Origin: Nitrospirae bacterium GWF2_44_13
GTDB lineage: Bacteria; Nitrospirota; Thermodesulfovibrionia; Thermodesulfovibrionales; UBA1546
Assembly (NCBI GenBank): GCA_001805105.1
Contig: MHEE01000004.1
Span: forward strand, 1 to 64,000
DNA length: 64,000 bases
Direction of reading: 5' to 3'
Part shown: positions 15,023 through 29,380 of the stretch, in pieces
How the letters are laid out: the number at the start of each line of letters is the position of its first letter
Position numbering within the stretch: position 1 is the first letter of the stretch
Translations under genes and position numbers: made by a program
Notes under the pieces: model-generated
What the model was told of the DNA's origin: nothing
The model's database searches: none
The model's input: only the letters and a program-made list of their open reading frames with translations

Positions 15023-15394
15023 ATGCCGGGAACTTATTTACCTTCGGATTATTTGCCTGTTCTTATATTTTTGATGGCCGCAACGGCCTTCGGAATGGGC
15101 GCCTTATTAATAGGTGAACTCCTCAGACTGAAAAGACCATACCCTGAAAAACTTATGCCTTATGAATCAGGCAACCTGCCTGTCGGAGAGCCGCGATACA
15201 GGTTCTCTGTTAAGTTCTATATTATTGCTATGCTCTTTGTCATCTTTGACGTCGAGGCTATTTTCCTTTATCCCTGGGCTGTTGTCTTTGACAGGATTGG
15301 ACTATATGCATTTATAGAGATGCTTATTTTTATAGTGATACTGTTTGTCGGCTATGCCTATGCATGGGGAAAGGAGGCATTTAAATGGGACTGA
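15023..15394 (+). CDS. nuoA: NuoA, complex I membrane subunit
   Basis: 123 residues, three membrane segments, with the conserved [21 protein letters not shown] loop region and the [11 protein letters not shown] motif. First gene of the complex I operon; the stop region overlaps nuoB by 10 bases. The 124-base AT-rich stretch upstream (14899-15022) is the only plausible promoter space after lpxK, but I see no clear consensus box there. Confidence 0.96.
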
Positions 15395-15912
15395 TTGAAA
15401 ACACAATTTCTCCATCGCTTGTTGAGGTTGAAAAAGGCACAAAAATATTGTCGCCTAATATCGTTATCACCTCAATGGACAAGCTCATCAACTGGGGAAG
15501 AAGCTCGTCCTTATGGCCCGTGACCTTTGGGCTTGCATGCTGCGGCATTGAAATGATGACGACGGGATCGTCACACTATGACCTGGACAGGATGGGGGTC
15601 ATCTTCAGAGGCTCTCCAAGGCAGGCCGACCTCATGATTGTAGCAGGCACTGTTACGAAAAAGATGGCCGAGATTGTAAGAAGGATATATGACCAGATGC
15701 CGGAACCGAGATATGTTGTGTCACTGGGGAGCTGTGCCTGTTCAGGAGGCATATTCAATACATACAGCACAGTGCAGGGATGCGACAGTTTCCTGCCTGT
15801 GGATGTTTATATCCCGGGCTGTCCTCCAAGGCCGGAGGCATTGCTTGAAGGGATAATAAAGCTTCAGGAAAAGATAAAAGGCGAGCATTTCAGGTGGAGC
15901 AGGTGGAGATGA
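15385..15912 (+). CDS. nuoB: NuoB, complex I subunit carrying cluster N2
   Basis: 175 residues. Cys ligands of the terminal [4Fe-4S] cluster N2 are visible: LACCGIEMM (vicinal pair), LGSCACSGG and [10 protein letters not shown]2 hands electrons to quinone at the NuoB/NuoD interface. Its stop overlaps the nuoC start as ATGA. Confidence 0.97.
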
Positions 15913-16442
15913 AGCCATTAGAGATTGCAGATAAGATAAAGGAAAAATTCCAGGATGAAGTCCTTGACGTAAAGGAATTCAGGGAACAGGTTGCTGTCAC
16001 ATTAAAGAAAGACAGAATCCTTGAAATATGCAGGTATCTCCATGACGATGCAGCCCTTTGTTTTGACTATCTTATTGATGTGTGCGGCGTGGACTATGCA
16101 GGAAAGAAAGAAAAGAGGTTTGAGGTTGTCTATCATCTTTATTCGATAAAGCGATGCCATGCAATAAGGTTGAAAGCAGAAGTGCCTGAAACTAATTCTG
16201 AGATTGATTCTGTTACAGTTTTATGGGCTGGCGCAAACTGGCATGAAAGAGAATGCTATGACATGTTCGGGATTATTTTTAAAGGTAATCAGGATCTCAG
16301 GAGAGTCCTTATGCCTGAGGACTGGGAAGGGCATCCCCTGAGAAAAGATTATCCGGTGAAGGGGCCGGAGAAGGAATGGCCGGGGTTTCAGGCAGTTCTT
16401 GACAGGGCAAAGAGATTTAAGGAATTTGAGTGGCATGGATAG
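15909..16442 (+). CDS. nuoC: NuoC, complex I 30 kDa subunit
   Basis: 177 residues from the ATG at 15909, which overlaps the nuoB stop and follows an AGGTGGAG site; an in-frame GTG at 15894 is less likely. The family signature [16 protein letters not shown]...[20 protein letters not shown] (two segments) is intact. NuoC is separate from NuoD here, not fused. A heptamer array begins a few bases after its stop. Confidence 0.95.
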
Positions 16443-16445
16443 AAA

Positions 16446-16529
16446 AGGATACAGGATGCAAGATACACGATTCAGGATAAAAATGCGATTAAATATCCTG
16501 TATCATGCATCTTGTATCATGAATCATGT
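16446..16529. repeat. 84-base two-arm heptamer array between nuoC and nuoD
   Basis: Twelve words in strict 7-base register: AGGATAC AGGATGC AAGATAC ACGATTC AGGATAA, a loop of two, then ATCCTGT ATCATGC ATCTTGT ATCATGA ATCATGT. The 3' words are reverse complements of the 5' words, so an mRNA hairpin between nuoC and nuoD is expected. Same word family and same length as the copy in lpxK. Confidence 0.88.
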
Positions 16530-16535
16530 GAAACT

Positions 16536-17726
16536 ATGGAACAGATAGAAAAGACATTTGAGACAAGAGAATTAACAATCAGCATGGGGCCTCAGCATCC
16601 GGCAACACATGGGGTTCTTAGACTTGTGCTTACCCTTGACGGCGAGACTGTCATTAAGTGCACTCCTCATGTTGGTTATCTCCACAGGGGGGTAGAAAAA
16701 CTCGGAGAAAACAGGACATATTTTTCTGCGCTTCCCCTAACCGACAGGCTCGATTACATATCATCCATGAACAACAATGTCGGCTATGTAAATGCTGTTG
16801 AAAAACTTTTTGGCATTGAAGCCCCTGAAAGGGCAAAGTTTATCAGAACAATGGTAGCTGAGATGGGAAGGATTTCAAGCCACATTATATGGCTTGGAAC
16901 ACATGTCCTTGATATAGGCGCAACAACACCATTTTTGTATGCATTTAGGGAAAGAGAACGCATTCTTGACCTTTTTGAAGCATTGTGCGGGGCAAGGCTC
17001 ACAGTAAGCTACCCGAGGATTGGCGGCGTGCGGAACGACGTTTCACAGGAATTTCTTGATGAGCTCTATAAGTTTGTTCTTGAATTCCCCAGCAGAATGG
17101 ATGATTATGAAACACTTGTCACAGAAAACCGGGTCTGGAGGAAGAGGACGGTCGGTATAGGCGTTATCTCTGCTGAGGAGGCTGTCAACTGGGGGCTCAC
17201 AGGCGGCATGTTGAGAGGCTCCGGCGTGTGCTATGACGTAAGAAAACATGCCCCTTATGATGCTTATGATAAGGTTGAGTTTGATGTCCCATTGGGGAAA
17301 AACGGAGATTGCTATGACAGGTATATCGTCAGGATGGGTGAGATGAGACAGGCAAACAGGATAATTAAACAGTGCATTGAAAAACTGCCAACAGGGCCTG
17401 TGATGGCTGATGCTCCCAAATTTACACTTCCCCCGAAAGATAAGATATTAAAGGATATGGAACATCTCATACATCAGTTTGTCCTCATAACAAAAGGTCC
17501 GATTGTTCCTGAAGGAGAGATATATTCTGCTACAGAGGTTCCTAAAGGGGAACTCGGATTTTATTTTGTAAGCGACGGCACCGGCAAGCCATACCGGATG
17601 AGAGTGCGAGCGCCCTCTTTTGTTCATGTATCAATTCTGCCGAAATTATGTGAGGGCGGCTTTGTTGCAGACGTTATTGCAAACATAGGGAGTATTGATA
17701 TAGTCTTAGGAGAATGCGACAGATGA
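16536..17726 (+). CDS. nuoD: NuoD, complex I 49 kDa quinone-site subunit
   Basis: 396 residues from ATG 16536. The quinone-site loop [17 protein letters not shown] and the [12 protein letters not shown] block are intact, as is the C-terminal [12 protein letters not shown]. An in-frame ATG at 16512 exists but lies inside the heptamer array, so the later start is preferred; its ribosome-binding site is weak (GTGA). Confidence 0.95.
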
Positions 17727-17778: not shown

Positions 17779-17835
17779 ATGTTTAGCGAAGCAGCGAAAA
17801 AAGAACTGAGTGAGATACGGGACGGCTATAAATAA
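17779..17835 (+). pseudogene. Remnant of the nuoE N-terminus (18 codons)
   Basis: GGAG and ATG at 17779 open an 18-residue frame, MFSEAAKKELSEIRDGYK, which ends in TAA. This closely resembles the first residues of stand-alone NuoE proteins (FSExxxxEIxxIxxxYP), and it sits exactly where nuoE belongs in a nuoABCDEFG operon. The rest of NuoE is found 2.2 kb downstream fused to a receiver domain (20063-20983). I read it as a stump left when the signalling genes entered the operon; a chance short ORF cannot be excluded. Confidence 0.5.
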
Positions 17836-17874: not shown

Positions 17875-19461
17875 GTGAAGATGAAAGTAAAGAAAACCTT
17901 TCATTCCCTGACAGGTAAGTTTATCTTATCCATAGGCGCACTTATGATTGTAGGCAGCGCTGTATTTTGGTATTTTCTGATTTATTATGAGGAGCGGGGA
18001 TTTATCAGGAATGCAGAAAAATACGGTTACTCTTTTGCGGATGTCATCAGAAAAAGCATCCGTTATGGAATGCTCACCTTTCAGCCTCATCTGGTTCAAC
18101 AGACTGTTGAGGCCATTGGATCTGCCGAGGATGTTATGCGGGTGAGGGTATTTGATTGCAATAGCAGGGTTGCCTATTCTTCAAAGAAGGATGAAAAAGG
18201 CATTGTGCTTGACACGGCTAAATCCTTCTGCATGGATCAGTATCCAAAGCATACTGAGATTAGAGAGGCATTAAGCTATTCCGACAAGAAAGACAGAAAT
18301 GGCTTCAAAGTTCTGAACATGCTTACCCCAATATATAACGAGCCTGCATGTTATACATCCTCATGCCATGTCCACCGCAGAGGAGACAGCATACTGGGCG
18401 TCATAGAATCTGATATTTCTTTGTCGGTTATGGACAAGACAACAAAGGAACATAAAATTGCAATGATTCTTTTTGTTTTCGGGTTTATCATTGCGATATC
18501 CGTAGTCCTCTGCAAAATCCTCTGGAATACGGTTTCTGTGCCCATAAGTATTCTTACAAAAGGCATGGCAGAGATTGCAGCAGGGAACCTTAATTATACT
18601 GTTAAGATAGATACAAAGGATGAGATAGGAGAGCTTGCAAAGTCCTTTAATGCGATGACAGTAGACCTCTCAAAGGCAAAGGAAAAAATTATTGAATGGG
18701 CGAGCACCCTTGAAAAAAAGGTTAATGAAAAGACGGAAGAGATCCGGGAAGCACAGGCACAGCTTGTGCATTCAGAGAAACTGGCTTCTCTCGGAAGGAT
18801 GGCAGCCGGAGTTGCCCATGAAATAAACAGCCCCCTGACTGGGATTGTAACATTTGCTCATTTACTTCAGAAAAAGTTTGACGCCGGGACGCAGGAAAGG
18901 GAGGACATAGACGTTATAATAGATCAGGCGAACAGATGTTCCAATATCATAAAGGGACTTCTCGAATTTGCCAGGGCCTCCACAGCTGATAAAACCGCGG
19001 TAAACATTAACGATATTCTGAACAGCTCGCTGAACATAGTCCGCAATAAGGCCGATTTCTTCAATGTGAAGATTGTGACAAATTATGAGGAGCAGCTGTA
19101 TTGTGTAAAGGCGGACACTTCCCAGCTTCAGCAGGTCTTTCTTAATATGATTGTGAATGCTGGGGACGCAATGGACGGAAAAGGTACGATTACAGTTAGC
19201 ACTAAAAACATAACCGAGAACGGAGGGGATTTTATAGAAATTGAATTCAGGGATACGGGTTCCGGCATCACAGATAAAAATCTGGTGAAGATATTTGAGC
19301 CTTTCTTTACTACTAAACCCGTGGGCAAGGGCACAGGTCTTGGGCTTGCTGTCAGCTACGGTATAATTCAGGAGCACGGCGGAAATATTTTTGTGAAGAC
19401 AAAACTCGGTAAAGGCACAAGCTTTTTTATCAAGCTGCCTGCTAATAAGGAAGTTTTATGA
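17875..19461 (+). CDS. Membrane sensor histidine kinase with a periplasmic C-x4-CHxH motif
   Basis: 528 residues. One membrane helix (about 14-36), a ~155-residue periplasmic domain, a second helix (about 195-217), HAMP, a coiled-coil, HisKA with VAHEINSPL (His315), and an ATPase domain with NMIVNAGDAM, DTGSGI and GKGTGLGLAV. The periplasmic domain ends with ACYTSSCHVHRRGDSILGV, a C-x4-C-H-x-H motif that could hold a c-type heme or a metal; this is inference. It sits inside the complex I operon and its stop overlaps the next receiver gene as ATGA, so the two are a coupled pair. GTG start after AGAAGGG. Confidence 0.9.
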   Translation: MKMKVKKTFHSLTGKFILSIGALMIVGSAVFWYFLIYYEERGFIRNAEKYGYSFADVIRKSIRYGMLTFQPHLVQQTVEAIGSAEDVMRVRVFDCNSRVAYSSKKDEKGIVLDTAKSFCMDQYPKHTEIREALSYSDKKDRNGFKVLNMLTPIYNEPACYTSSCHVHRRGDSILGVIESDISLSVMDKTTKEHKIAMILFVFGFIIAISVVLCKILWNTVSVPISILTKGMAEIAAGNLNYTVKIDTKDEIGELAKSFNAMTVDLSKAKEKIIEWASTLEKKVNEKTEEIREAQAQLVHSEKLASLGRMAAGVAHEINSPLTGIVTFAHLLQKKFDAGTQEREDIDVIIDQANRCSNIIKGLLEFARASTADKTAVNINDILNSSLNIVRNKADFFNVKIVTNYEEQLYCVKADTSQLQQVFLNMIVNAGDAMDGKGTITVSTKNITENGGDFIEIEFRDTGSGITDKNLVKIFEPFFTTKPVGKGTGLGLAVSYGIIQEHGGNIFVKTKLGKGTSFFIKLPANKEVL

Positions 19462-19832
19462 GTAAAGGCAATATTCTCGTTATAGACGACGAAGATATTA
19501 TAAGAATAAGCTGCAAACGCGCGCTTATGCCGGAGGGTTTTGAAGTAAAAACAGCCCAAAACGGCATTGAAGGGCTAAAGATGATAGGGGAAGAGAAGTT
19601 TGATGTTGTCCTTACTGACCTCAAGATGCCGGAGATAGACGGGATAGAGGTCTTGAGGCTGATCAAACAAAGATGGGCTGAGATAGTGGTTATAATTATT
19701 ATAGGCTATCAGACTGTTGACAACGCGGTTAAGGCTATAAAGCTCGGCGCATATGATTATATTGAAAAGCCTTTTACGCCCGAAGGTATAGTCAGCGTTG
19801 TGTGCAGAGCGCTGGAAGACAGAAAAAAGTAA
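19458..19832 (+). CDS. Single-domain response regulator lacking the switch Thr
   Basis: 124 residues, receiver domain only, no output domain. The phospho-acceptor is Asp54 (VLTDLKMPEIDG), the acidic pocket IDDED and Lys104 (EKPF) are present. The conserved Thr/Ser before the Gly-Tyr is Ile82 here (VVIIIIGYQT), which should weaken the usual signal switch. It is translationally coupled to the kinase at 17875 and close to a second receiver domain at 20063, suggesting a phosphorelay or sink role. Confidence 0.9.
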   Translation: MSKGNILVIDDEDIIRISCKRALMPEGFEVKTAQNGIEGLKMIGEEKFDVVLTDLKMPEIDGIEVLRLIKQRWAEIVVIIIIGYQTVDNAVKAIKLGAYDYIEKPFTPEGIVSVVCRALEDRKK

Positions 19833-19844
19833 AAGGGGGCTGCC

Positions 19845-19997
19845 ATGGAAAAGAAAGACAAGATATTCACCGGAAGCGGTTACGCAGAGGGACTGATTTC
19901 GCCCATGACCGGCAAGGGTATAGAGCTTAATCTCAATGCGAATGCGGCAATGGGCGCTCTTTTTGGGGATAATCTAAGCGAAGGATGGCTGTTGTGA
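19845..19997 (+). CDS. 50-residue protein between the two receiver genes
   Basis: ATG at 19845 follows AAGGGGGCTGCC. The frame encodes MEKKDKIFTGSGYAEGLISP and continues through a glycine/alanine-rich stretch with an NLNANAAMGALFGDN segment to TGA at 19997. No membrane segment or cysteine. I do not recognise the family. Position in the kinase-receiver cassette and a reasonable ribosome-binding site argue that it is real. Confidence 0.5.
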   Translation: MEKKDKIFTGSGYAEGLISPMTGKGIELNLNANAAMGALFGDNLSEGWLL

Positions 19998-20062: not shown

Positions 20063-20983
20063 ATGGCGGCAAAAATCCTTGTTGTAGACGATGAGATTAT
20101 AGCTATAAGAAGCGCTGAAAGAGTCCTGCGCTCAGAAGGCTATGACGTGGAAGGTGTTTTAAGCGGCAGGGAGGCGATGCTCAAGCTTGAACAGAACAAT
20201 TATGATCTTGTTCTTACAGACCTCAAAATGCCGGAAGTTGACGGAATAACTTTAATCAGATGGCTGAGAAATGTAAAGCCGTCAATCAGGATTGTGGTGA
20301 TCACCGGCTATCCTTCGCAGGAAACGATAAAAGAAGCGCTTGAGCTTGGCATTATTGATTATGTTCCCAAACCATTTACGCCTGCGGTTTTATCGGATGT
20401 GACGCAAAGGGCATTGGAATGGAGAAAATGCGGGTGCGAAGCTGAAAAATCTAAAGAAGAAATTCCGCCTGCAATGCTCAGTGAATTAGACAGGGTTGTC
20501 AAAGAATATAAAAACAAACCTGGAAGCCTTATTCCGGTGCTACAGCGCGCTCAGGAGATTGTAGGCTATCTGCCGCCTTTTATACAGAAGCGGATTGGCA
20601 AAGGGCTTAATATATCTCCCGCAGAGGTTCACAGCGTTGTATCTTTCTATTCATTTTTCACAATGAAGCCGAGAGGCGACCATAATATCAGGGTTTGCCT
20701 CGGGACAGCATGTTATGTCAGAGGTATTGAAGGCGTTCTCGAAAAGATAAAGGATTCGCTGAAGATTAATATCGGAGATACAACTGAAAACAAGAAGTTT
20801 TCCCTTGAGGCGGTGCGCTGCCTCGGTGCTTGCGGGCTTGCGCCTGTTATGGTTGTTGATCAGGATACATATGGCGCAATGACGCCCAAAAAGGCCATGG
20901 AAGTCATCGGCCAGTATGACCCGTCTTTTACAGGCGCAACAGCAAAAGAAGAAGCAGAAAGACAGCTGAATAAGGAGGTTTAA
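20063..20983 (+). CDS. nuoE: Receiver domain fused to NuoE [2Fe-2S] subunit
   Basis: 306 residues. Residues 1-120 are a complete response-regulator receiver (VVDDE, Asp53 in VLTDLKMPEVDG, Thr81, Lys103). Residues ~134-285 are a NuoE/HndA thioredoxin-like domain, with four cluster ligands in CLGTAC (Cys212, Cys217) and CLGAC (Cys253, Cys257), plus the helical SLIPVLQRAQEIVGYLP part. A CGC pair lies in the linker (Cys123, Cys125). The start at 20063 follows GAGGAG; the in-frame ATG at 20051 does not. This appears to be the only complete NuoE of the operon, so complex I assembly would carry a phosphorylatable domain. Confidence 0.92.
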   Translation: MAAKILVVDDEIIAIRSAERVLRSEGYDVEGVLSGREAMLKLEQNNYDLVLTDLKMPEVDGITLIRWLRNVKPSIRIVVITGYPSQETIKEALELGIIDYVPKPFTPAVLSDVTQRALEWRKCGCEAEKSKEEIPPAMLSELDRVVKEYKNKPGSLIPVLQRAQEIVGYLPPFIQKRIGKGLNISPAEVHSVVSFYSFFTMKPRGDHNIRVCLGTACYVRGIEGVLEKIKDSLKINIGDTTENKKFSLEAVRCLGACGLAPVMVVDQDTYGAMTPKKAMEVIGQYDPSFTGATAKEEAERQLNKEV

Positions 20984-20984
20984 G

Positions 20985-21368
20985 ATGCCGAGATTGACAG
21001 TAGGGGATTTGCAAAAGATAAAGGAAAAGCATAAAGCAGAATTTACATTAAGAGAAGGCGGATACAGGGCAAAGGTTACAGTCCACATGGGCACATGCGG
21101 GATTGCAGCAGGCGCAAGAGAGGTAATGACAGCGCTTCTTGATGAAATTGCAAACGCCGGCATAGATGATGTCATTGTCACAACCTCCGGCTGCGCGGGA
21201 CTGTGCGCGCGTGAGCCTCTGGCTACAGTAGAAATAATCAACGCTCCGCCTGTCAAATACTGTGATTTGAATGCTGAAAAGATAAAGGAAATATTCAGGG
21301 AGCATATAATGGCAGGGAATCCTGTAGAAAAATATGCCCTTGTTGTTGGATGCGAGACAATGTACTAA
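20985..21368 (+). CDS. HndB-like thioredoxin-fold [2Fe-2S] protein
   Basis: 127 residues. Similar to HndB of NADP-reducing hydrogenases: HMGTCGIAAGAREVM near the N-terminus and TSGCAGLCAREPLATV further on, giving three obvious Cys ligands plus a fourth in KYCDL. Such small ferredoxin-like subunits usually accompany HydABC/HndABCD rather than standard complex I. Starts one base after the NuoE fusion stop, with GGAGGT upstream. Confidence 0.85.
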   Translation: MPRLTVGDLQKIKEKHKAEFTLREGGYRAKVTVHMGTCGIAAGAREVMTALLDEIANAGIDDVIVTTSGCAGLCAREPLATVEIINAPPVKYCDLNAEKIKEIFREHIMAGNPVEKYALVVGCETMY

Positions 21369-21439: not shown

Positions 21440-23305
21440 ATGTTGGAAAAAGTTCGTACAAATTTAATGCTGTGCGCAGGAACAGGTTGTGTAGCAAGCG
21501 GCACAGCGAAAGTTAAAGATGCCCTGCAGAAAGAACTTGAAAAGAGGGGGCTTGAGAAAGAAATAAAGATTGTCCTCACAGGCTGCAACGGCTACTGCGC
21601 AGAAGGCCCTGTTATGGCGGTTTATCCAGATGAGATCTTTTATCAGAAGCTGACGGTTGAGGATGTGCCTAAATTGGTCGAAGAGCATTTTCTTAAGGGC
21701 AGGCCTTATCAGAAGCTGATGTTTAAAGAGCCGGAGAAGAAGACCGCAATACCAATGATGAAGGAAATTCCGTTCTTCAAACATCAGGTACTCAGGGTTT
21801 TGAGAAATAAGGGGCTTATAGACCCTGAAAAGATAGAGGAATATATTTCAAGAGACGGTTATCAGGCTGCTGCAAAGGCGCTTACACAGATGACTCAGGA
21901 AGATATAATCAAGGTAATAAAAGATTCAGGATTAAGAGGGAGAGGTGGCGCAGGCTTTCCTACAGGGCTGAAATGGGACTTTGCGTCCAAGGTTAAATCC
22001 GATATCAAATACATGCTCTGTAACGGTGACGAAGGAGACCCCGGCGCATTCATGGACCGGTCTGTTATGGAGTCTGACCCGCATTCAGTTATCGAAGGAA
22101 TGATCATAGGGGCAAAGGCGATAGAAGCGCATAGCGGCTATATCTATGTCAGGGCTGAATACCCATTGGCTGTGAAGCGTCTTCATCTGGCAATAGATCA
22201 GGCTACAGAGGCAGGGCTTTTAGGAAAGAATATTCTTGATACAGGATTTGATTTTGAACTTGAGATATATCTTGGCGCAGGCGCTTTTGTATGCGGTGAA
22301 GAGACTGCGCTTATGCGTTCAATAGAAGGCAAAAGGGGTATGCCGAGACCGAGGCCGCCTTTCCCTGCGCATAAAGGGTTATGGGATAAGCCGTCAGTTC
22401 TTAACAATGTAGAAACCCTTGCTCAGATTGCTCCAATAATACTGAACGGCTCTGAGTGGTACAGGAGCCTCGGCACAGAAAAGAGCACAGGCACAAAGGT
22501 CTTTGCATTGACAGGAGCTGTAAATAATGTCGGACTTGTTGAGGTGCCTATGGGCATTCCTCTGAGGACGATAATATACGATATAGGTGGCGGCATAAGG
22601 AAAGGAAGAAAGTTCAAGGCAGTCCAGCTTGGCGGCCCGTCAGGCGGATGCATCCCTGAACACCTCCTGCATACCCCTGTTACATATGAAGACATTGTTG
22701 CAACCGGTGCAATCGTAGGCTCCGGCGGTATGGTTGTTATGGATGAAAATACATGCATGGTGGGAACTGCAAAATTTTTCCTTGAGTTTACAACAGATGA
22801 ATCATGCGGCAAGTGCCCTCCTTGCAGGGTCGGTACAAAGATACTTATGGATATGCTGACCGACATCACTGAAGGAAGGGGCAAAGAAAGCGACATAGAG
22901 ACACTTGAAGACCTTGGCAGAGATATAATCGCGACCTCGCTCTGCGGGCTTGGTCAGACAGCCCCCAATCCCATACTTACGACGATAAAGTATTTCAGGG
23001 ACGAATACGAATCACATATAAAGCACAAATGGTGCAAGGCCGGCGTCTGCCGTGAGCTCACAACATTCCTTATTGATGAAAAACTTTGCAAAGGGTGCGG
23101 GGCCTGCCTGAGAGCATGCCCTTCAAAGGCAATAACTGGAGAAAAGAAGATGCCGCACAAGATTATACAGGACCTTTGCGTGCATTGCAGGACATGCTAT
23201 GATGCGTGCAAATTCAAGTCAATAAAAATCCTGCCCGCAAAATTTCAAGGTGATCCGGCAGAGCTTGAAGCCGTATTAGAAAAATCAAAGAGGGAAGCGG
23301 AATGA
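21440..23305 (+). CDS. nuoF: NuoF/HydB-type NADH-binding flavoprotein subunit
   Basis: 621 residues, much longer than a ~430-residue classical NuoF. Order: N-terminal thioredoxin-like [2Fe-2S] domain (Cys12, 17, 49, 53), FMN/NADH domain (GRGGAGFPTGLKW, LGAGAFVCGEETALMRS), N3 cluster motif SCGKCPPCRVG, and a C-terminal pair of [4Fe-4S] motifs (CKGCGACLRACPS and CVHCRTCYDAC). This is the HydB/HndC layout of bifurcating hydrogenases. The AGGAGG site is almost touching the ATG at 21440; the TTG at 21443 is an alternative start. Overlaps nuoG as ATGA. Confidence 0.93.
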   Translation: MLEKVRTNLMLCAGTGCVASGTAKVKDALQKELEKRGLEKEIKIVLTGCNGYCAEGPVMAVYPDEIFYQKLTVEDVPKLVEEHFLKGRPYQKLMFKEPEKKTAIPMMKEIPFFKHQVLRVLRNKGLIDPEKIEEYISRDGYQAAAKALTQMTQEDIIKVIKDSGLRGRGGAGFPTGLKWDFASKVKSDIKYMLCNGDEGDPGAFMDRSVMESDPHSVIEGMIIGAKAIEAHSGYIYVRAEYPLAVKRLHLAIDQATEAGLLGKNILDTGFDFELEIYLGAGAFVCGEETALMRSIEGKRGMPRPRPPFPAHKGLWDKPSVLNNVETLAQIAPIILNGSEWYRSLGTEKSTGTKVFALTGAVNNVGLVEVPMGIPLRTIIYDIGGGIRKGRKFKAVQLGGPSGGCIPEHLLHTPVTYEDIVATGAIVGSGGMVVMDENTCMVGTAKFFLEFTTDESCGKCPPCRVGTKILMDMLTDITEGRGKESDIETLEDLGRDIIATSLCGLGQTAPNPILTTIKYFRDEYESHIKHKWCKAGVCRELTTFLIDEKLCKGCGACLRACPSKAITGEKKMPHKIIQDLCVHCRTCYDACKFKSIKILPAKFQGDPAELEAVLEKSKREAE

Positions 23306-25761
23306 TAGAACTGACAATTAACGATAAGAAAATTTCCGTGGAAGAAGGCACAACAATACTTAAGGCAGCGCAGAAGAACGGCATTAAGATACCGAATCTC
23401 TGTTTTGACAAAAGGCTGAGGCCGTACGGCGGGTGCAGGCTCTGCATTGTTGAGGTGGAAGGGCAGCCGAGGCTCTTTGCCTCGTGTTCAACTCCGGCTG
23501 CGCCGGGCATGATTGTTAAGACCGATACGCCTAAGCTGAGAAAAGCCCGGCAGACAGTGCTGGAACTTCTTCTTATCCACCATCCGCTTGACTGCCCAAT
23601 ATGCGACAAGGCCGGTGAATGCGATCTTCAGGATCTTGCATACGAATGCGGCAAACCTGAAGGCCGGTTTATAAGACACAGAAAGGCATCTCCTGCTGAT
23701 GTCAGGGGCCCGCTTATTGAATTGACTGCAAACAGGTGCATCCTCTGCGGCAAGTGCGTGAGAATCTGCGCAGAGCATCAGGGACGCGGGGCTCTCGGGC
23801 TGATAGGCAGAGGATTTCCGACGGTTGTCCAGCCTGCATTCGGCGAAATACTTGAATGCGATTACTGCGGTCAGTGTATTGACGCCTGTCCGACAGGAGC
23901 GCTTTTGAGCAAGCCCTCAAAGTTTCAGGCGCGTGCATGGTTCCTTGAAGAGAGAGACACCATCTGTCCTTTCTGCGGCTGCGGCTGCACGCTTACGCTT
24001 GGAATCAGAGAAGGAAAGATACTGAGGTCGCGGGGCAAGGAAGACAATGGAAGGAGCGAAGGAAATCTATGCGGCAGGGGCAGGTTTGGATTTGATTACA
24101 TATACAGCGAAAACCGTTTGAAGACGCCTATGATAAAAAAAGACGGCGAGTTTGCATCTGTTTCATGGGATGAAGCGCTCACGCATATAAGCAATAACCT
24201 GAAAGCTATAATGACATCTCACGGGCCATCCTCTGTCGGAGCCATAGGGTCCCATAGATGTACAAATGAAGATAACTTTATGCTGCAAAAATTTATGAGG
24301 GAAGTTGTCGGTTCCGATAACATAGATTCCTCTGCTGCTTTTGGTTATGCCAAAGTGGAAAAGGCATGGGAGATGGCGTTCGGGCAGAAGGGACATAGCA
24401 TAGACCTCAAATCTCCTCTGAATAAAGAAGTGATATTTATCCTTGAATCGGATTTGAGCATAACCCACCCTATATTCGGGCTTAATATCTTACAGGCGAA
24501 GAGAGAAGGCGCAAGGCTTATTGTTGCTGACAGCAGGGAGACAAAACTTACAAAACACAGTTCACAGGTTCTAAGGATAAAAGCAGGAACAGGGATAGCT
24601 CTTCTGAACGGGATTATGAAGGTTATTATGGATAAAGGCCTTTTTGACAGAGGGAAAGCCTCAGCGTATCAGAGGTTCTCATCCCTTGAATCATCATTAA
24701 AAGATTACACGCTTGAGAGAGTGTCGGGCATTACAGGAATTCCCGAACAAGATATTTCATCTGTTGCAGAGATATTTGCAAAGGCAGAAAACAGGCTGTT
24801 ATCCCTTTCTATAGGTGTTTCTGAAAATAATAAGGGAATGGATACTGTTCTTGCTGCAGCAAATCTTATCAATTTGTTGGGTGATAGCCCGGCTTCGCTT
24901 CAGATACCGGCTGAATACGCAAATACTTTCGGGCTTTATCAGGCGGGAATAAAGCAGGATTCAGGCAAAAGCGTTTTAGAGATGCTATATGGAGACAGCC
25001 CTCTAAAGGCACTGTATATTATGGGGGAAGACCCGGTTGTGACATTCCCTGATAGTTCTGAGATTATCAGGAGACTAAAATCACTTGATTTTTTAATTGT
25101 GCAGGACATAGCGCTCACAGAGACAGCAAAATTAGCGCATGTTATACTGCCTGCTTCAAGCTGGGCGGAAAAAGAAGGGACCTTTACAAATGCAGAAGGC
25201 GTTGCCCAGAGGCTTCGCAAGGTAGCGGAAACAACAGTTCAATCGCTTTCGGACTGGCAGATCATCAGAAATCTTTCATTGGCAATGGGGAAAGATATCG
25301 GCATAAGGGATATTGAAAGGGATATGAAAGATATGAGCGCATTACATGCGTCGCCCCAGACTCGGGCTGCTCAGGGTTATGCATTCAATCCCGCCAGCTA
25401 TGCGCCCTCTGAAGAGCCTGACGCAGAGTATCCTCTGACTATGGTTGTCAGGGATGTACTGCAGCACTCAGGGAGCATGTCAACAAGGTCTAAGGCTCTG
25501 GACCTTGTGGTCTCCGGGGCTCTAATAGAGATAAACGAGAAAGATGCAAAAGAATATGGCATCTCAGATAACAGCCACGTTAAGGTAATGTCAAGGCGCG
25601 GAGACATATATCTTAAATCCAAGGTTTCTGACGAGGTTCCACATGGAACGGTTTATGTGCCGGCACATTTTCCGCACAACCGCATTAATGCTCTTACGCA
25701 CCCCTCATTTAATGGGGGAATGGCCATTGATACAGTTAACATTGAACCGGTAAAGGGGTAA
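23302..25761 (+). CDS. nuoG: NuoG, complex I large iron-sulfur subunit with molybdopterin-type fold
   Basis: 819 residues. [2Fe-2S] domain (Cys34, 45, 48, 62), His/Cys cluster site HHPLDCPICDKAGECDL, two [4Fe-4S] motifs (CILCGKCVRIC, CDYCGQCIDACP), a further CPFCGCGC cluster, then a bis-MGD-type fold. Where formate dehydrogenases have the catalytic Cys or selenocysteine after the NID motif, this protein has NIDSSAAFGYAK, so formate oxidation is not supported and a NuoG role fits. A C-terminal aspartate-decarboxylase-like domain (SRRGDIYLKSKV) is present. Confidence 0.9.
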   Translation: MIELTINDKKISVEEGTTILKAAQKNGIKIPNLCFDKRLRPYGGCRLCIVEVEGQPRLFASCSTPAAPGMIVKTDTPKLRKARQTVLELLLIHHPLDCPICDKAGECDLQDLAYECGKPEGRFIRHRKASPADVRGPLIELTANRCILCGKCVRICAEHQGRGALGLIGRGFPTVVQPAFGEILECDYCGQCIDACPTGALLSKPSKFQARAWFLEERDTICPFCGCGCTLTLGIREGKILRSRGKEDNGRSEGNLCGRGRFGFDYIYSENRLKTPMIKKDGEFASVSWDEALTHISNNLKAIMTSHGPSSVGAIGSHRCTNEDNFMLQKFMREVVGSDNIDSSAAFGYAKVEKAWEMAFGQKGHSIDLKSPLNKEVIFILESDLSITHPIFGLNILQAKREGARLIVADSRETKLTKHSSQVLRIKAGTGIALLNGIMKVIMDKGLFDRGKASAYQRFSSLESSLKDYTLERVSGITGIPEQDISSVAEIFAKAENRLLSLSIGVSENNKGMDTVLAAANLINLLGDSPASLQIPAEYANTFGLYQAGIKQDSGKSVLEMLYGDSPLKALYIMGEDPVVTFPDSSEIIRRLKSLDFLIVQDIALTETAKLAHVILPASSWAEKEGTFTNAEGVAQRLRKVAETTVQSLSDWQIIRNLSLAMGKDIGIRDIERDMKDMSALHASPQTRAAQGYAFNPASYAPSEEPDAEYPLTMVVRDVLQHSGSMSTRSKALDLVVSGALIEINEKDAKEYGISDNSHVKVMSRRGDIYLKSKVSDEVPHGTVYVPAHFPHNRINALTHPSFNGGMAIDTVNIEPVKG

Positions 25762-25762
25762 T

Positions 25763-26122
25763 ATGTCACTAACATTAGCTGAGATAAAGGTGATACTTAA
25801 TGCAAATGTCCTAACGTCTAAATTTGATGCAAATACTGTAATTGGAATGGCGTATAGCGCAGATCTGATGAGTGATGTGCTTTCATTTTCACAGACGGAT
25901 TCTCTTCTTATAACAGGTCTTGTTGACAAGACCGTTGTACGCACTGCCCATGTTGCAAATATTAAGGCAATTGTCTTTGCGAGAGGAAAGGTACCCAATA
26001 AAGATACCGTTGCCCTCGCAGATGAAAAGAATATCCCCTTGATGATTACAAATTTTTCCAAGTATGAGTCTTGCGGCAGGTTATATGAAAAAGGGCTTAG
26101 GAATTCATATGATGCAAAATAA
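25763..26122 (+). CDS. DRTGG-domain protein, first copy
   Basis: 119 residues resembling the DRTGG domain found in HPr-kinase-like and Pta-associated proteins: GMAYSADLMSDVLSF, LLITGLVDKTVVRTAHVANI, IVFARGKVPNKD. DRTGG proteins commonly accompany Hyd/Hnd hydrogenase operons; the function is not known. It starts 1 base after nuoG. A second, related copy follows at 26557. Confidence 0.8.
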   Translation: MSLTLAEIKVILNANVLTSKFDANTVIGMAYSADLMSDVLSFSQTDSLLITGLVDKTVVRTAHVANIKAIVFARGKVPNKDTVALADEKNIPLMITNFSKYESCGRLYEKGLRNSYDAK

Positions 26123-26579
26123 AGAAACGACTATGAAAGGAGTTTTTTTTTTAACAGGCAAGGACTTTGCCAATGCAGGCGCTGCCTCCTGTGAACTTAA
26201 GACCATACTTGAAAAGATGCAAATTGAACAAAGCGCCATAAGGAGAGCGGCGATAGCTGCTTTTGAGGCAGAAATGAACATAATAATATATACGCCCGCA
26301 GGCATGATGAAATATTCAATTACGCCGGATTATGTCAAGGTTGTATTCCAAGACATGGGCCACGGCATTGAGGATATTGAACTTGCCATGACTGAGGGCT
26401 ACTCAACAGCGCCTGATTATATCAGGGAAATGGGGTTTGGTTCAGGCATGGGTTTGCCGAATATTAAAAAGAATACAGATGAGATGAAAATTTCATCGGC
26501 GCCGGGTGCCGGCACAACACTTGAATTCATTATAAAGTTCAAGCAGGAAAGGGACAATGAAAATATCCGAGATTGTTGA
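26109..26579 (+). CDS. Anti-sigma-factor-like HATPase protein
   Basis: About 156 residues. A single GHKL ATPase domain as in RsbW/SpoIIAB-like kinases: FEAEMNIIIYT (N-box), VVFQDMGHGIEDIELA (G1) and GFGSGMGLPNIKKN (G2). No phospho-acceptor domain. The start at 26109 follows TTAGGA and overlaps the DRTGG gene by 14 bases; ATG 26133 is an alternative. It belongs to the hydrogenase-style accessory set; here a role in sensing nucleotide or redox state near NuoEFG is inferred. Confidence 0.8.
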   Translation: MMQNKETTMKGVFFLTGKDFANAGAASCELKTILEKMQIEQSAIRRAAIAAFEAEMNIIIYTPAGMMKYSITPDYVKVVFQDMGHGIEDIELAMTEGYSTAPDYIREMGFGSGMGLPNIKKNTDEMKISSAPGAGTTLEFIIKFKQERDNENIRDC

Positions 26580-26898
26580 AGGGCTTTCTTTAGAAGTTAA
26601 ATCTGCCAATGTAAATCTTGAGAAAGAAGTCACCGGCGGATATGTAAGCGACCTTCTCTCAGATGTTATAGCAAACTGCAAAGAGGGCAATATATGGATA
26701 ACACTTCAGACTCATCAGAATATTATAGCGGTTGCCACTCTCAGGGAATTGTCAGGCATTATCCTTGTTAACGGCAAAGCCCCTGATGCAGATACTATTA
26801 AAAAGGCAAATGAGGAAAGCATACCGTTAATGGCAAGCTCTTTGCCGGCATTTGAGATTGTCGGAAGGCTTTATAACCTTGGTATTAGATGCCGGTAG
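26557..26898 (+). CDS. DRTGG-domain protein, second copy
   Basis: 113 residues, same fold as the 25763 gene: GGYVSDLLSDVIANCKEGN, TLQTHQNIIAVATLRELSGI, ILVNGKAPDAD. Overlaps the upstream HATPase and the downstream PHP gene by about 10-23 bases, so translation is coupled throughout. Confidence 0.8.
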   Translation: MKISEIVEGLSLEVKSANVNLEKEVTGGYVSDLLSDVIANCKEGNIWITLQTHQNIIAVATLRELSGIILVNGKAPDADTIKKANEESIPLMASSLPAFEIVGRLYNLGIRCR

Positions 26899-27629
26899 AG
26901 TTCAGGGCAGATCTACATATACATACGTGCCTTTCGCCGTGTGCGGACATAGGGATGACGCCTTTGCGCATTATAGAAAAAGCAGCATCCTTAGGGTTGA
27001 ATATAATCGCTATCTCTGACCATAATTCTGCGGAGAATGCAGAGGTTGCAAGGAAACTGGGAATGGAAAAAGGCATTAATGCCATACCGGGAATGGAGGT
27101 AACCTCTTCCGAAGAGGTTCATGTCCTCGGTCTTTTCAGGCATATTGAAGATGCATTGAAAATGCAGAATATTGTTTATGAAAATCTTCAGCCCGGCGAG
27201 AACGATGAAAACGTGTTCGGTATGCAGGTTGTTGTAAATGAGGAAGAAGAGGTTCTTGGTTTCAATAGGCGCCTTTTAATAGGCGCAACAAGGCTCTCTG
27301 TTAATAACCTTGTGGAAGCGATACATTCTTTTAATGGCATTGCAATCGCAGCCCATATTGACAGGGAGGGTTTTGGAATTATAAGTCAGCTCGGCTTTAT
27401 TCCTTCTGATTTAAAACTGGACGCCCTTGAGATCTCTTCCCGTGTGCCGATAGAGGAGGCAGAAAGCAGATTTAAAGAATACAGCCATATTCCTTGGATT
27501 GTATCCTCTGATGCGCATAGCCTTAATGATATTGGAAAGGCCTACACTGGCTTTTTTATGGAAGATTCCACATTTGAAGAATTAAGGCTTGCATTTAAAG
27601 GAACGGGCGGAAGAAAAATTAGCTGTTGA
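26889..27629 (+). CDS. PHP-domain phosphoesterase
   Basis: 246 residues with a complete polymerase-and-histidinol-phosphatase metal site: DLHIHTCLSPC, ISDHNS, IPGMEVTSSEEVHVLG, AAHIDREGF, SSDAHS. Probably a Zn/Fe-dependent phosphoesterase. Homologues of this protein lie with DRTGG and HATPase genes in hydrogenase operons; the substrate is unknown. Confidence 0.85.
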   Translation: MPVEFRADLHIHTCLSPCADIGMTPLRIIEKAASLGLNIIAISDHNSAENAEVARKLGMEKGINAIPGMEVTSSEEVHVLGLFRHIEDALKMQNIVYENLQPGENDENVFGMQVVVNEEEEVLGFNRRLLIGATRLSVNNLVEAIHSFNGIAIAAHIDREGFGIISQLGFIPSDLKLDALEISSRVPIEEAESRFKEYSHIPWIVSSDAHSLNDIGKAYTGFFMEDSTFEELRLAFKGTGGRKISC

Positions 27630-27631
27630 AG

Positions 27632-28174
27632 ATGCAGGACCTTTCTCTTCATATGCTGGATATTATTGAAAACTCTATTAAGGCAGGAGCAAGGAGGGTT
27701 GAAATAATGATAAATGAGGATTTAGAAAAAGATATCCTTTCTATTGAGATAAAAGACAATGGCGAGGGAATAGACAGGGAAACGCTTGAAAAAGTCCTTG
27801 ATCCATTTTATACAACACGGACAACTCGCAGGGTGGGGCTTGGGCTGTCATTGCTTTCCCAGTCAGCTAAAGAAGCAGAAGGGGACATATTAATTAAATC
27901 CGAAAAAGGCATTGGAACAGCAGTCCATGCATATTTTAAACACAGCCATATTGACAGGAGGCCTTTGGGGAATATTGCAGATACAATATTTGTTTTGATA
28001 GCCGGCAATCCCGATATTGATTTTTACTATAAACATAAAAAGAATGATAAAGAGTATTCCATTGATACAAAAGAGATCAGGGCTGAACTCGGAGATGTTC
28101 CGTTGAATTCTGCCGAGGTTATAAAAATTATAAGGAAAGATATAGAAGAGGGGCTAAGGGAGATAAGGGGATAA
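27632..28174 (+). CDS. Stand-alone HATPase_c protein
   Basis: About 180 residues starting MQDLSLHMLDIIENSIKAG. A GHKL ATPase domain with ENSIKAGA (N-box), IKDNGEGIDRETL (G1), TRRVGLGLSLL (G2) and no His-containing domain; the last ~60 residues form an uncharacterised tail (GNPDIDFYYKHKKND). A TTG at 27626 overlapping the PHP stop could also start it. This is the last gene of the accessory cassette before nuoH. Confidence 0.8.
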   Translation: MQDLSLHMLDIIENSIKAGARRVEIMINEDLEKDILSIEIKDNGEGIDRETLEKVLDPFYTTRTTRRVGLGLSLLSQSAKEAEGDILIKSEKGIGTAVHAYFKHSHIDRRPLGNIADTIFVLIAGNPDIDFYYKHKKNDKEYSIDTKEIRAELGDVPLNSAEVIKIIRKDIEEGLREIRG

Positions 28175-28181
28175 TATTGTT

Positions 28182-28337
28182 ATGGATGGGCGCAGAGGAC
28201 AGGAAATATTTTTTTATTCACAGTACAATTTTGAAAAATTTTACAAAAAAGCGTGTTTAAAGACTGAAAATATAATATATAATACCGAGGTTGTTATAGA
28301 AAAGTCGGCGCGATTTGATTCCGAGGTGAGGGCATGA
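28182..28337 (+). CDS. 51-residue ORF translationally coupled to nuoH
   Basis: ATG at 28182 opens MDGRRGQEIFFYSQYNFEKF and the frame runs to a TGA that overlaps the nuoH start as ATGA. It fills the only sizeable gap (28175-28333) in this part of the operon. No recognised family, one Cys. There is no strong ribosome-binding site, so it could also be an untranslated spacer; coupling to nuoH is the main reason to list it. Confidence 0.35.
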   Translation: MDGRRGQEIFFYSQYNFEKFYKKACLKTENIIYNTEVVIEKSARFDSEVRA

Positions 28338-29380
28338 GCGATATTTTAAATATTTTAATCACAGAAGAGACCCTTAATATGCTGATGAAGATAGGAATAA
28401 TATTTTTGAAGATTGCCGTTGTCCTTGGTATAACACTTCTTCATGTGGCTTACGCAACTTACTGGGAGCGCAAAGTAATAGGCCACATGCAGGTAAGGCT
28501 TGGGCCGATTGAGGTAGGCTGGCATGGGTTTTTACAGCCGATTGCTGACGGAGTAAAACTTTTTTTCAAGGAAGACATTATACCTGCGAATGCAGACAAG
28601 CCGTTGTTCTATCTCGCGCCTGTCATATTCATGGTTTCAGCTCTCACGTCATTATCTGTGCTTCCGTTTTTCGATGGTTTTGTGATAGCTGATATAAATA
28701 TAGGATTGCTTTTTCTTTTTGCAATGTCTTCTCTCGGAGCCTATGGAATTATATTATCGGGGTGGGCGTCAAACTCCAAGTATTCATTCCTCGGCGGGCT
28801 GAGGTCAGCATCACAGGTAATCAGTTATGAGATTGCAATGGGCCTCAGCCTTGTGGGTGTTATGATGATGGCAGGTTCCCTTAACCTCTCTGATATTGTC
28901 AGGGCACAGCATCAATATCCCACAGGCATGTTTGCCATTCCTCAGTTCTTGGGTTTCTTTGTATTTATTGTGGCTGCATTTGCCGAGACAAACAGGCTTC
29001 CCTTTGACCTGCCGGAGGCTGAAAGCGAGCTTGTTGCGGGATATTTTACGGAATACAGCGGATTCAGGTTCGCGCTATTTTTCCTCGGCGAGTACACAGC
29101 GATGCTGATAATGTCTTCTATAGCGGCATTGTGCTTTTTAGGAGGATGGACAATCCCAAAGTTTATTACGGATGCAATGCCTCTTTTGATGAATGTGCCG
29201 GGCATTGTGTGGTTCCTGATAAAGGTTTATGCCTTTATGTTTTTTTATTACTGGGTCAGGGCAACTTTGCCGAGATACAGGTATGACCAGCTTATGGCGA
29301 TAGGATGGAAAATATTAATACCCTTAGCCCTGTTCAATATAGTGTTAACAGGAACGTTGAGGACTATGGGAGTTCTATGA
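28334..29380 (+). CDS. nuoH: NuoH, complex I membrane subunit
   Basis: 348 residues, about eight membrane helices. Conserved ERKVIGHMQVRLGP and LQPIADGVKLFFKE loops and the ETNRLPFDLPEAESELVAGY loop that lines the quinone chamber are present. GGTGAGG precedes the ATG. The stop overlaps nuoI as ATGA. Confidence 0.97.
   Translation: MSDILNILITEETLNMLMKIGIIFLKIAVVLGITLLHVAYATYWERKVIGHMQVRLGPIEVGWHGFLQPIADGVKLFFKEDIIPANADKPLFYLAPVIFMVSALTSLSVLPFFDGFVIADINIGLLFLFAMSSLGAYGIILSGWASNSKYSFLGGLRSASQVISYEIAMGLSLVGVMMMAGSLNLSDIVRAQHQYPTGMFAIPQFLGFFVFIVAAFAETNRLPFDLPEAESELVAGYFTEYSGFRFALFFLGEYTAMLIMSSIAALCFLGGWTIPKFITDAMPLLMNVPGIVWFLIKVYAFMFFYYWVRATLPRYRYDQLMAIGWKILIPLALFNIVLTGTLRTMGVL

Follow-up and report, generated by a model that had tools for sequence, protein, structure and literature searches.

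Two-component systems act mostly on transcription, and in receivers of the kind described here phosphorylation of a central Asp alters the alpha4-beta5-alpha5 face. To our knowledge, the control of bifurcating NADH enzymes is largely open. The Bfu family comprises HydABC, NiFe-HydABCSL, Nfn-Bfu and Nuo-Bfu; movement of a domain of BfuC has been proposed as the gate of bifurcation, and Nuo-Bfu is found in Nitrospirae (Schut et al. 2022, PMC9304861). A text search of PMC9304861 found neither 'response regulator' nor 'histidine kinase'. The window, the 64,000-nucleotide stretch of Nitrospirota DNA analysed here, holds a cassette that resembles this family in its BfuB-type NuoF with the B2 His/Cys residues, its HydC-type NuoE and its NuoG/BfuA, and its layout is that of Nuo-Bfu. 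It differs from the enzymes described in PMC9304861 by a receiver within BfuC, and by a kinase and further receivers in the cassette.

Four other kinds of system come close to this receiver-NuoE fusion (RR-NuoE). The orphan response regulator Rv3143 (MSMEG_2064) binds NuoD and modulates mycobacterial complex I (PMC9274095); like it, RR-NuoE has its gene near a nuo operon and is proposed to influence an NADH dehydrogenase through contact between proteins, but Rv3143 is a separate protein whereas the receiver of RR-NuoE is covalently fused to NuoE. Receivers joined to metabolic enzymes in a lineage-restricted manner are also known, those named in section vii of PMC5847659 being a KaiC-like NTPase, a glycosyltransferase, a thioredoxin reductase and a pyruvate phosphate dikinase; the partner in RR-NuoE is instead a respiratory Fe-S subunit. 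Canonical complex I NuoE, NuoF and NuoG share homologous core folds and cluster ligands with the cassette proteins, but they have no receiver, their NuoF is short and without the extra clusters, and they form a separate set in most relatives. A receiver protein that binds Fe-S, which we take to be FixT, likewise combines a receiver with Fe-S chemistry in one protein. The cluster of that protein (PMC7078487) lies in the receiver itself, and the protein feeds back on a two-component system and does not belong to an NADH enzyme. A search of the open-licence literature found no account of a receiver on NuoE.

Domain structure of RR-NuoE

The fusion and its parts are as follows.

20063-20983, + strand: receiver-NuoE (BfuC-type) fusion, RR-NuoE, identified by Pfam, 86/86 conservation, AlphaFold/Foldseek and dN/dS
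about 20072-20422, + strand: receiver part of RR-NuoE, residues 4-120
about 20486-20920, + strand: NuoE [2Fe-2S] domain of RR-NuoE, residues 142-286, preceded by a near-constant linker

RR-NuoE is a single open frame of 306 amino acids, with GAGGAG just 5' of its ATG at 20063 and a stop codon at 20981-20983. Pfam places Response_reg (PF00072) on residues 5-112 (E = 3.5e-28) and 2Fe-2S_thioredx (PF01257) on residues 143-285 (E = 1.4e-48). The receiver has its acidic pair (D9, D10), phosphoacceptor Asp (D53), Thr/Ser (T81) and Lys (K103), and all four ligands of the [2Fe-2S] cluster, Cys212, 217, 253 and 257, are present in the NuoE domain. Pfam and residues thus agree with an earlier note on this DNA, which had described an intact receiver (Asp53, Thr81, Lys103) ahead of an intact NuoE with four Cys, and the receiver looks phosphorylatable.

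The AlphaFold model, built from a 62-sequence alignment, has a mean pLDDT of 82.5 and two confidently folded domains, with a poorly ordered, low-confidence linker at residues 125-132. At a pTM of 0.47 the relative orientation of the domains is not predicted, and the model contains no fixed receiver-NuoE interface. Foldseek matched RR-NuoE with CheY-like receivers (target-normalised TM 0.93) and with HydC/NuoE chains. Comparison with the 92%-identical sister RR-NuoE gave a dN/dS of 0.076 in the receiver and 0.077 in the NuoE domain; the receiver is, as judged by substitutions, under strong purifying selection.

Conservation, origin and losses of the fusion

Alignment gave 87 distinct rows, one of which, an NtrC-type protein, was left out, leaving 86 distinct full-length RR-NuoE homologues in Nitrospirota assemblies. 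D9, D10, D53, T81, K103 and the four Cys are invariant in all 86, and in 78 of them Ala117 and Gly154 stand 37-39 residues apart. No extra conserved cysteines occur in the receiver among the aligned homologues. The earlier note had raised an assembly error as an alternative and had suggested looking for the domain pair in other genomes, where these homologues were indeed found across Nitrospirota. That two genes were joined by misassembly or accidental read-through, for which no supporting point was found, is ruled out for practical purposes by the recurrence of the fusion in dozens of assemblies, in some of them on contigs >2 Mb. By this distribution, the pairing is a conserved feature of an entire Nitrospirota class, the Thermodesulfovibrionia.

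Another 18, mostly more distant, RR-NuoE copies were read singly, and the receiver site is intact in 15. In the remaining three it is damaged, the five residues being DNYSA in G142, DDNVK in G172 and DDDAK in G160, while the NuoE cysteines are intact in all three (loci L178, L179 and L181). Since these lineages lost receiver residues and kept the NuoE ligands, they appear to be natural losses of the switch, which would be dispensable there. The same three lineages, by keeping the fusion despite non-functional receiver sites, speak for a receiver that serves as a docking or assembly domain only, with phosphorylation chemistry irrelevant, and so does the absence of a fixed interface from the AlphaFold model. 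Invariance of five active-site residues in 86 sequences is, however, unexpected for a pure docking domain, and we regard this explanation as very improbable.

In a tree of receivers those of RR-NuoE form one clade with a support of 100/99, apart from the neighbouring stand-alone and GcvH-linked receivers, and the simplest reading is therefore that the receiver joined NuoE once. In the tree of NuoE domains, canonical NuoE lies far from RR-NuoE and a receiver-less family (f23) lies nearer; its deep branching order is not resolved and RR-NuoE is not one clade in it. A diverged RR-NuoE family, f6 (loci L176, L177, L184 and L185), was also seen, with two copies in some genomes (G132, G148 and G236).

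Most of the genomes compared are metagenome-assembled, and the distribution figures refer to Nitrospirota. A contig scan for the fusion listed 80 matches, all from Nitrospirota/Thermodesulfovibrio-type or unclassified bins. The search of viral contigs gave one match, to the receiver only. No fusion was found on plasmids, where the two matches with >80% query coverage had 24-27% identity and fell on genes annotated as response regulators and on neighbouring genes.

Type of the NADH module

Three genes follow RR-NuoE directly.

20985-21368, + strand: small protein that weakly matches a [2Fe-2S] ferredoxin model, directly 3' of RR-NuoE in 52/66 loci
21440-23305, + strand: NuoF of BfuB/HydB type, with N-terminal [2Fe-2S] domain, FMN/NADH domain and C-terminal 2x[4Fe-4S] (His526, Cys532, Cys537)
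23302-25761, + strand: NuoG/BfuA, with a molybdopterin-fold domain without the formate dehydrogenase Cys/Sec-His motif

With the TIGR01958 model of NuoE, RR-NuoE scored 118.9 bits against a curated cut-off of 142.4, below the level of canonical NuoE, and the solved chains closest to its NuoE domain are HydC/BfuC. The cassette NuoF scored 823 bits to the bifurcating HydB 7t2r_B and at most 397 to complex I NuoF. It has 621 amino acids and both extra domains, against about 420 amino acids in the canonical short form, and it is under strong purifying selection. His526, Cys532 and Cys537 of its B2 cluster are present in 71 of 71 sequences, as in BfuB, a count that does not include the other two B2 ligands. 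NuoG is narrowly above the NuoG cut-off (471.8 versus 470.05), and its Fdh-alpha score of 471.8 is below the cut-off of 666. At the Mo/W-site position it has Phe-Gly in 51 of 56 sequences, and in the remaining five the Gly comes after a different residue that is again not Cys; a role as formate dehydrogenase is ruled out by the lack of Cys/Sec (then His) at this site. The small protein between RR-NuoE and NuoF had no match in Pfam.

By these scores and residues, RR-NuoE is a HydC/BfuC-type subunit of an electron-bifurcating-type NADH module and not the classical NuoE of complex I. The description of RR-NuoE as a core electron-entry subunit in the earlier note does not hold in the sense of classical NuoE, given the score below cut-off and the canonical set kept by relatives; it is likely to apply only where canonical nuoE, nuoF and nuoG have been deleted, as here.

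Loss of canonical nuoEFG from the nuo operon

The cassette is flanked by the genes of complex I.

15023-17726, + strand: nuoA, nuoB, nuoC, nuoD
17779-17835, + strand: canonical nuoE remnant of 18 codons, MFSEAAKKELSEIR followed by DGYK and a stop, with an internal deletion, as aligned to the sister contig (L149/L009)
28334-35806, + strand: nuoH, nuoI, nuoJ, nuoK, nuoL, nuoM, nuoN

The window lacks canonical nuoF and nuoG, a segment of about 4 kb that the sister carries ahead of nuoH; the junction lies at 28165-28388. The cassette sits between nuoD and nuoH, and the nuo operon has no other NADH module left. It is inside the nuo operon of the sister genome (G298, L009) too, between nuoE and nuoF. 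A search of the present genome by query found no canonical NuoF. Three NuoE-family genes occur in it, and the other two adjoin a selenocysteine-type formate dehydrogenase and a CODH-like gene. The former belongs to a second bifurcating-type module (L152:3256-8247; G000 C15 328-333 kb), whose formate dehydrogenase frame is broken by a TGA, likely a selenocysteine codon, directly before a His codon; the latter, adjoining the carbon monoxide dehydrogenase-like gene, belongs to a third (L153:757-7904; G000 C15 213-220 kb).

The Nuo-Bfu (Type 3) layout, with BfuABC in mid-nuo replacing NuoEFG, is thus found in the window, whereas in most relatives the cassette is separate. Many of them encode a separate nuoE without receiver for complex I, along with nuoF and nuoG, at another place or divergent. 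Canonical NuoF is also present in 48 of the 60 order-level RR-NuoE genomes; of the other 12, six are without it (G000, G114, G120, G162, G192 and G196) and six (G142, G158, G170, G228, G246 and G290) are unlisted in the canonical-NuoF survey and were perhaps not sampled. That the cassette was the NADH module of complex I from the start is ruled out by the separate canonical set kept in most relatives. A further arrangement occurs at L214 (G053 C40), where canonical nuoE and nuoF, a receiver-less Bfu set and one NuoG share a single nuo operon.

The figure of 48 genomes indicates that the cassette evolved as a separate enzyme, and the same phosphorylation switch could accordingly still act here on a separate soluble bifurcating enzyme, next to an 11-subunit, ferredoxin-fed complex I without NADH module. 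In a genome of the same genus (G299; L174, C187) nuoABCD is followed directly by nuoHIJKL with no NuoEFG between, so that complex I here could run without the module. On the other side, the cassette fills precisely the space from nuoD to nuoH, none of canonical E, F and G is left, and nuoD, nuoH and nuoI, the nuo genes tested, are still under purifying selection. Family f23 has the same Nuo-Bfu layout without receiver, nuoABCD-[accessory genes-NuoE-trx-BfuB]-NuoG-nuoHIJKL. We consider the separate enzyme rather unlikely, and from the cassette position, the deletions and the f23 layout the receiver-bearing module likely now serves complex I in this genome.

Probable signalling partners in the cassette

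The remaining cassette genes lie on either side of those listed above.

17875-19461, + strand: membrane histidine kinase with Pfam HAMP, HisKA (His315) and HATPase and, by hydropathy, two hydrophobic segments; conserved in 40 homologues
19458-19832, + strand: stand-alone CheY-like receiver, conserved Thr changed to Ile
19845-19997, + strand: 50-amino-acid remnant of a receiver-GcvH-like gene whose product has 255 amino acids in relatives; about 585 nt are deleted internally
25763-28174, + strand: accessory genes DRTGG, HATPase, DRTGG, PHP and HATPase, kept with the cassette in relatives

In relatives the cassette consists of histidine kinase, stand-alone receiver, sometimes an NtrC-type regulator (455-490 amino acids), receiver-GcvH-like protein, RR-NuoE, ferredoxin-like protein, BfuB, NuoG and DRTGG/HATPase/DRTGG/PHP/HATPase. 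Downstream of RR-NuoE, NuoF is present in 62/66 loci and NuoG in 54/55; receiver-GcvH is directly upstream in 59/76. Where 6 kb of upstream sequence was available, a histidine kinase was found upstream of RR-NuoE in 38 of 55 loci and none was detected in the other 17. The receiver-GcvH-like relatives (L009:6289-7056) carry a receiver and a glycine-cleavage-H-like domain (PF01597, E = 5.8e-7); in 76 sequences their receiver residues are invariant or nearly so, and no invariant lysine occurs at the expected lipoyl position.

The gene at 17875, which the earlier note had taken for the kinase, does encode a histidine kinase in the same gene cluster as RR-NuoE. Its presumed extracytoplasmic domain, between the hydrophobic segments, has a conserved C-x4-C-H-x-H (C159, C164, H165, H167), which may bind heme or a metal. 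It is likely the phosphodonor of RR-NuoE, falling short of proof because other receivers share the operon. The three operon receivers have 4-6 of 13 alpha-1 residues identical, against a mean of 2 and a maximum of 4 for the 24 other receivers of the genome, which points modestly to one kinase for all three.

Two sister response regulators are damaged in this genome, and the kinase and RR-NuoE are undamaged. The Ile of the stand-alone receiver occurs in this genome only, all other homologues read having Thr or Ser, and the amino acid changes of this receiver number 9 on the branch to the window and 1 on that to the sister. With the Thr lost here and receiver-GcvH truncated, the signalling pathway may be decaying in this genome, which counts against our preferred explanation. 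Information could also flow in reverse: phosphate uptake or retention by the receiver would then depend on the redox state of the NuoE cluster or on the binding of NADH, and the enzyme would serve the kinase and the other regulators as a redox sensor or a phosphate sink. The several receivers of the cassette, and in some loci the NtrC-type regulator, would suit such a role, and feedback on a two-component system is known for the Fe-S-binding receiver of PMC7078487. Yet in this genome RR-NuoE is conserved while the sister regulators, which would be the beneficiaries, are damaged, and the receiver has no extra conserved cysteines; we hold reverse flow to be improbable.

Proposed mechanism

Our preferred explanation, which we place just on the probable side, is that a kinase-controlled NuoE/BfuC subunit gates NADH/ferredoxin electron entry, in this genome most likely feeding the remainder of complex I. 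The receiver would have been gained once by the NuoE/BfuC of a bifurcating-type module (RR-NuoE, BfuB-type NuoF and NuoG) in the ancestor of a large part of Nitrospirota (Thermodesulfovibrionia). We infer that the membrane kinase senses an extracytoplasmic, probably redox-related signal, autophosphorylates at His315 and then phosphorylates Asp53 of RR-NuoE and the sister receivers. Once phosphorylated, the receiver, whose spacing to the NuoE domain is nearly constant, would alter the position or partner contacts of BfuC, whose Fe-S domain is the proposed moving gate between the NADH/FMN and ferredoxin branches, and this shift would raise or lower NADH/ferredoxin electron entry. Here the module would stand in for the deleted NuoEFG and most likely feed NuoABCDHIJKLMN, as proposed for Nuo-Bfu. 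The full combination, a proton-pumping complex I whose NADH module is replaced by a bifurcating one and switched by a kinase through the receiver in NuoE, would amount to phosphorylation-gated respiratory electron entry, a tentative proposal that we do not rate as the probable outcome.

Fusions of receivers with metabolic enzymes are already known, and the receiver on a NuoE/BfuC subunit is new as far as literature was found. Sitting on the proposed moving gate of bifurcation and intact in dozens of genera, it offers a direct way into both two-component and bifurcation control, and the genome of the window presents a natural swap of the NADH module of complex I with gene remnants still in place. 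As read from these genes, the finding suggests that Nitrospirota energy metabolism would be switched directly by signalling, beyond gene expression alone.
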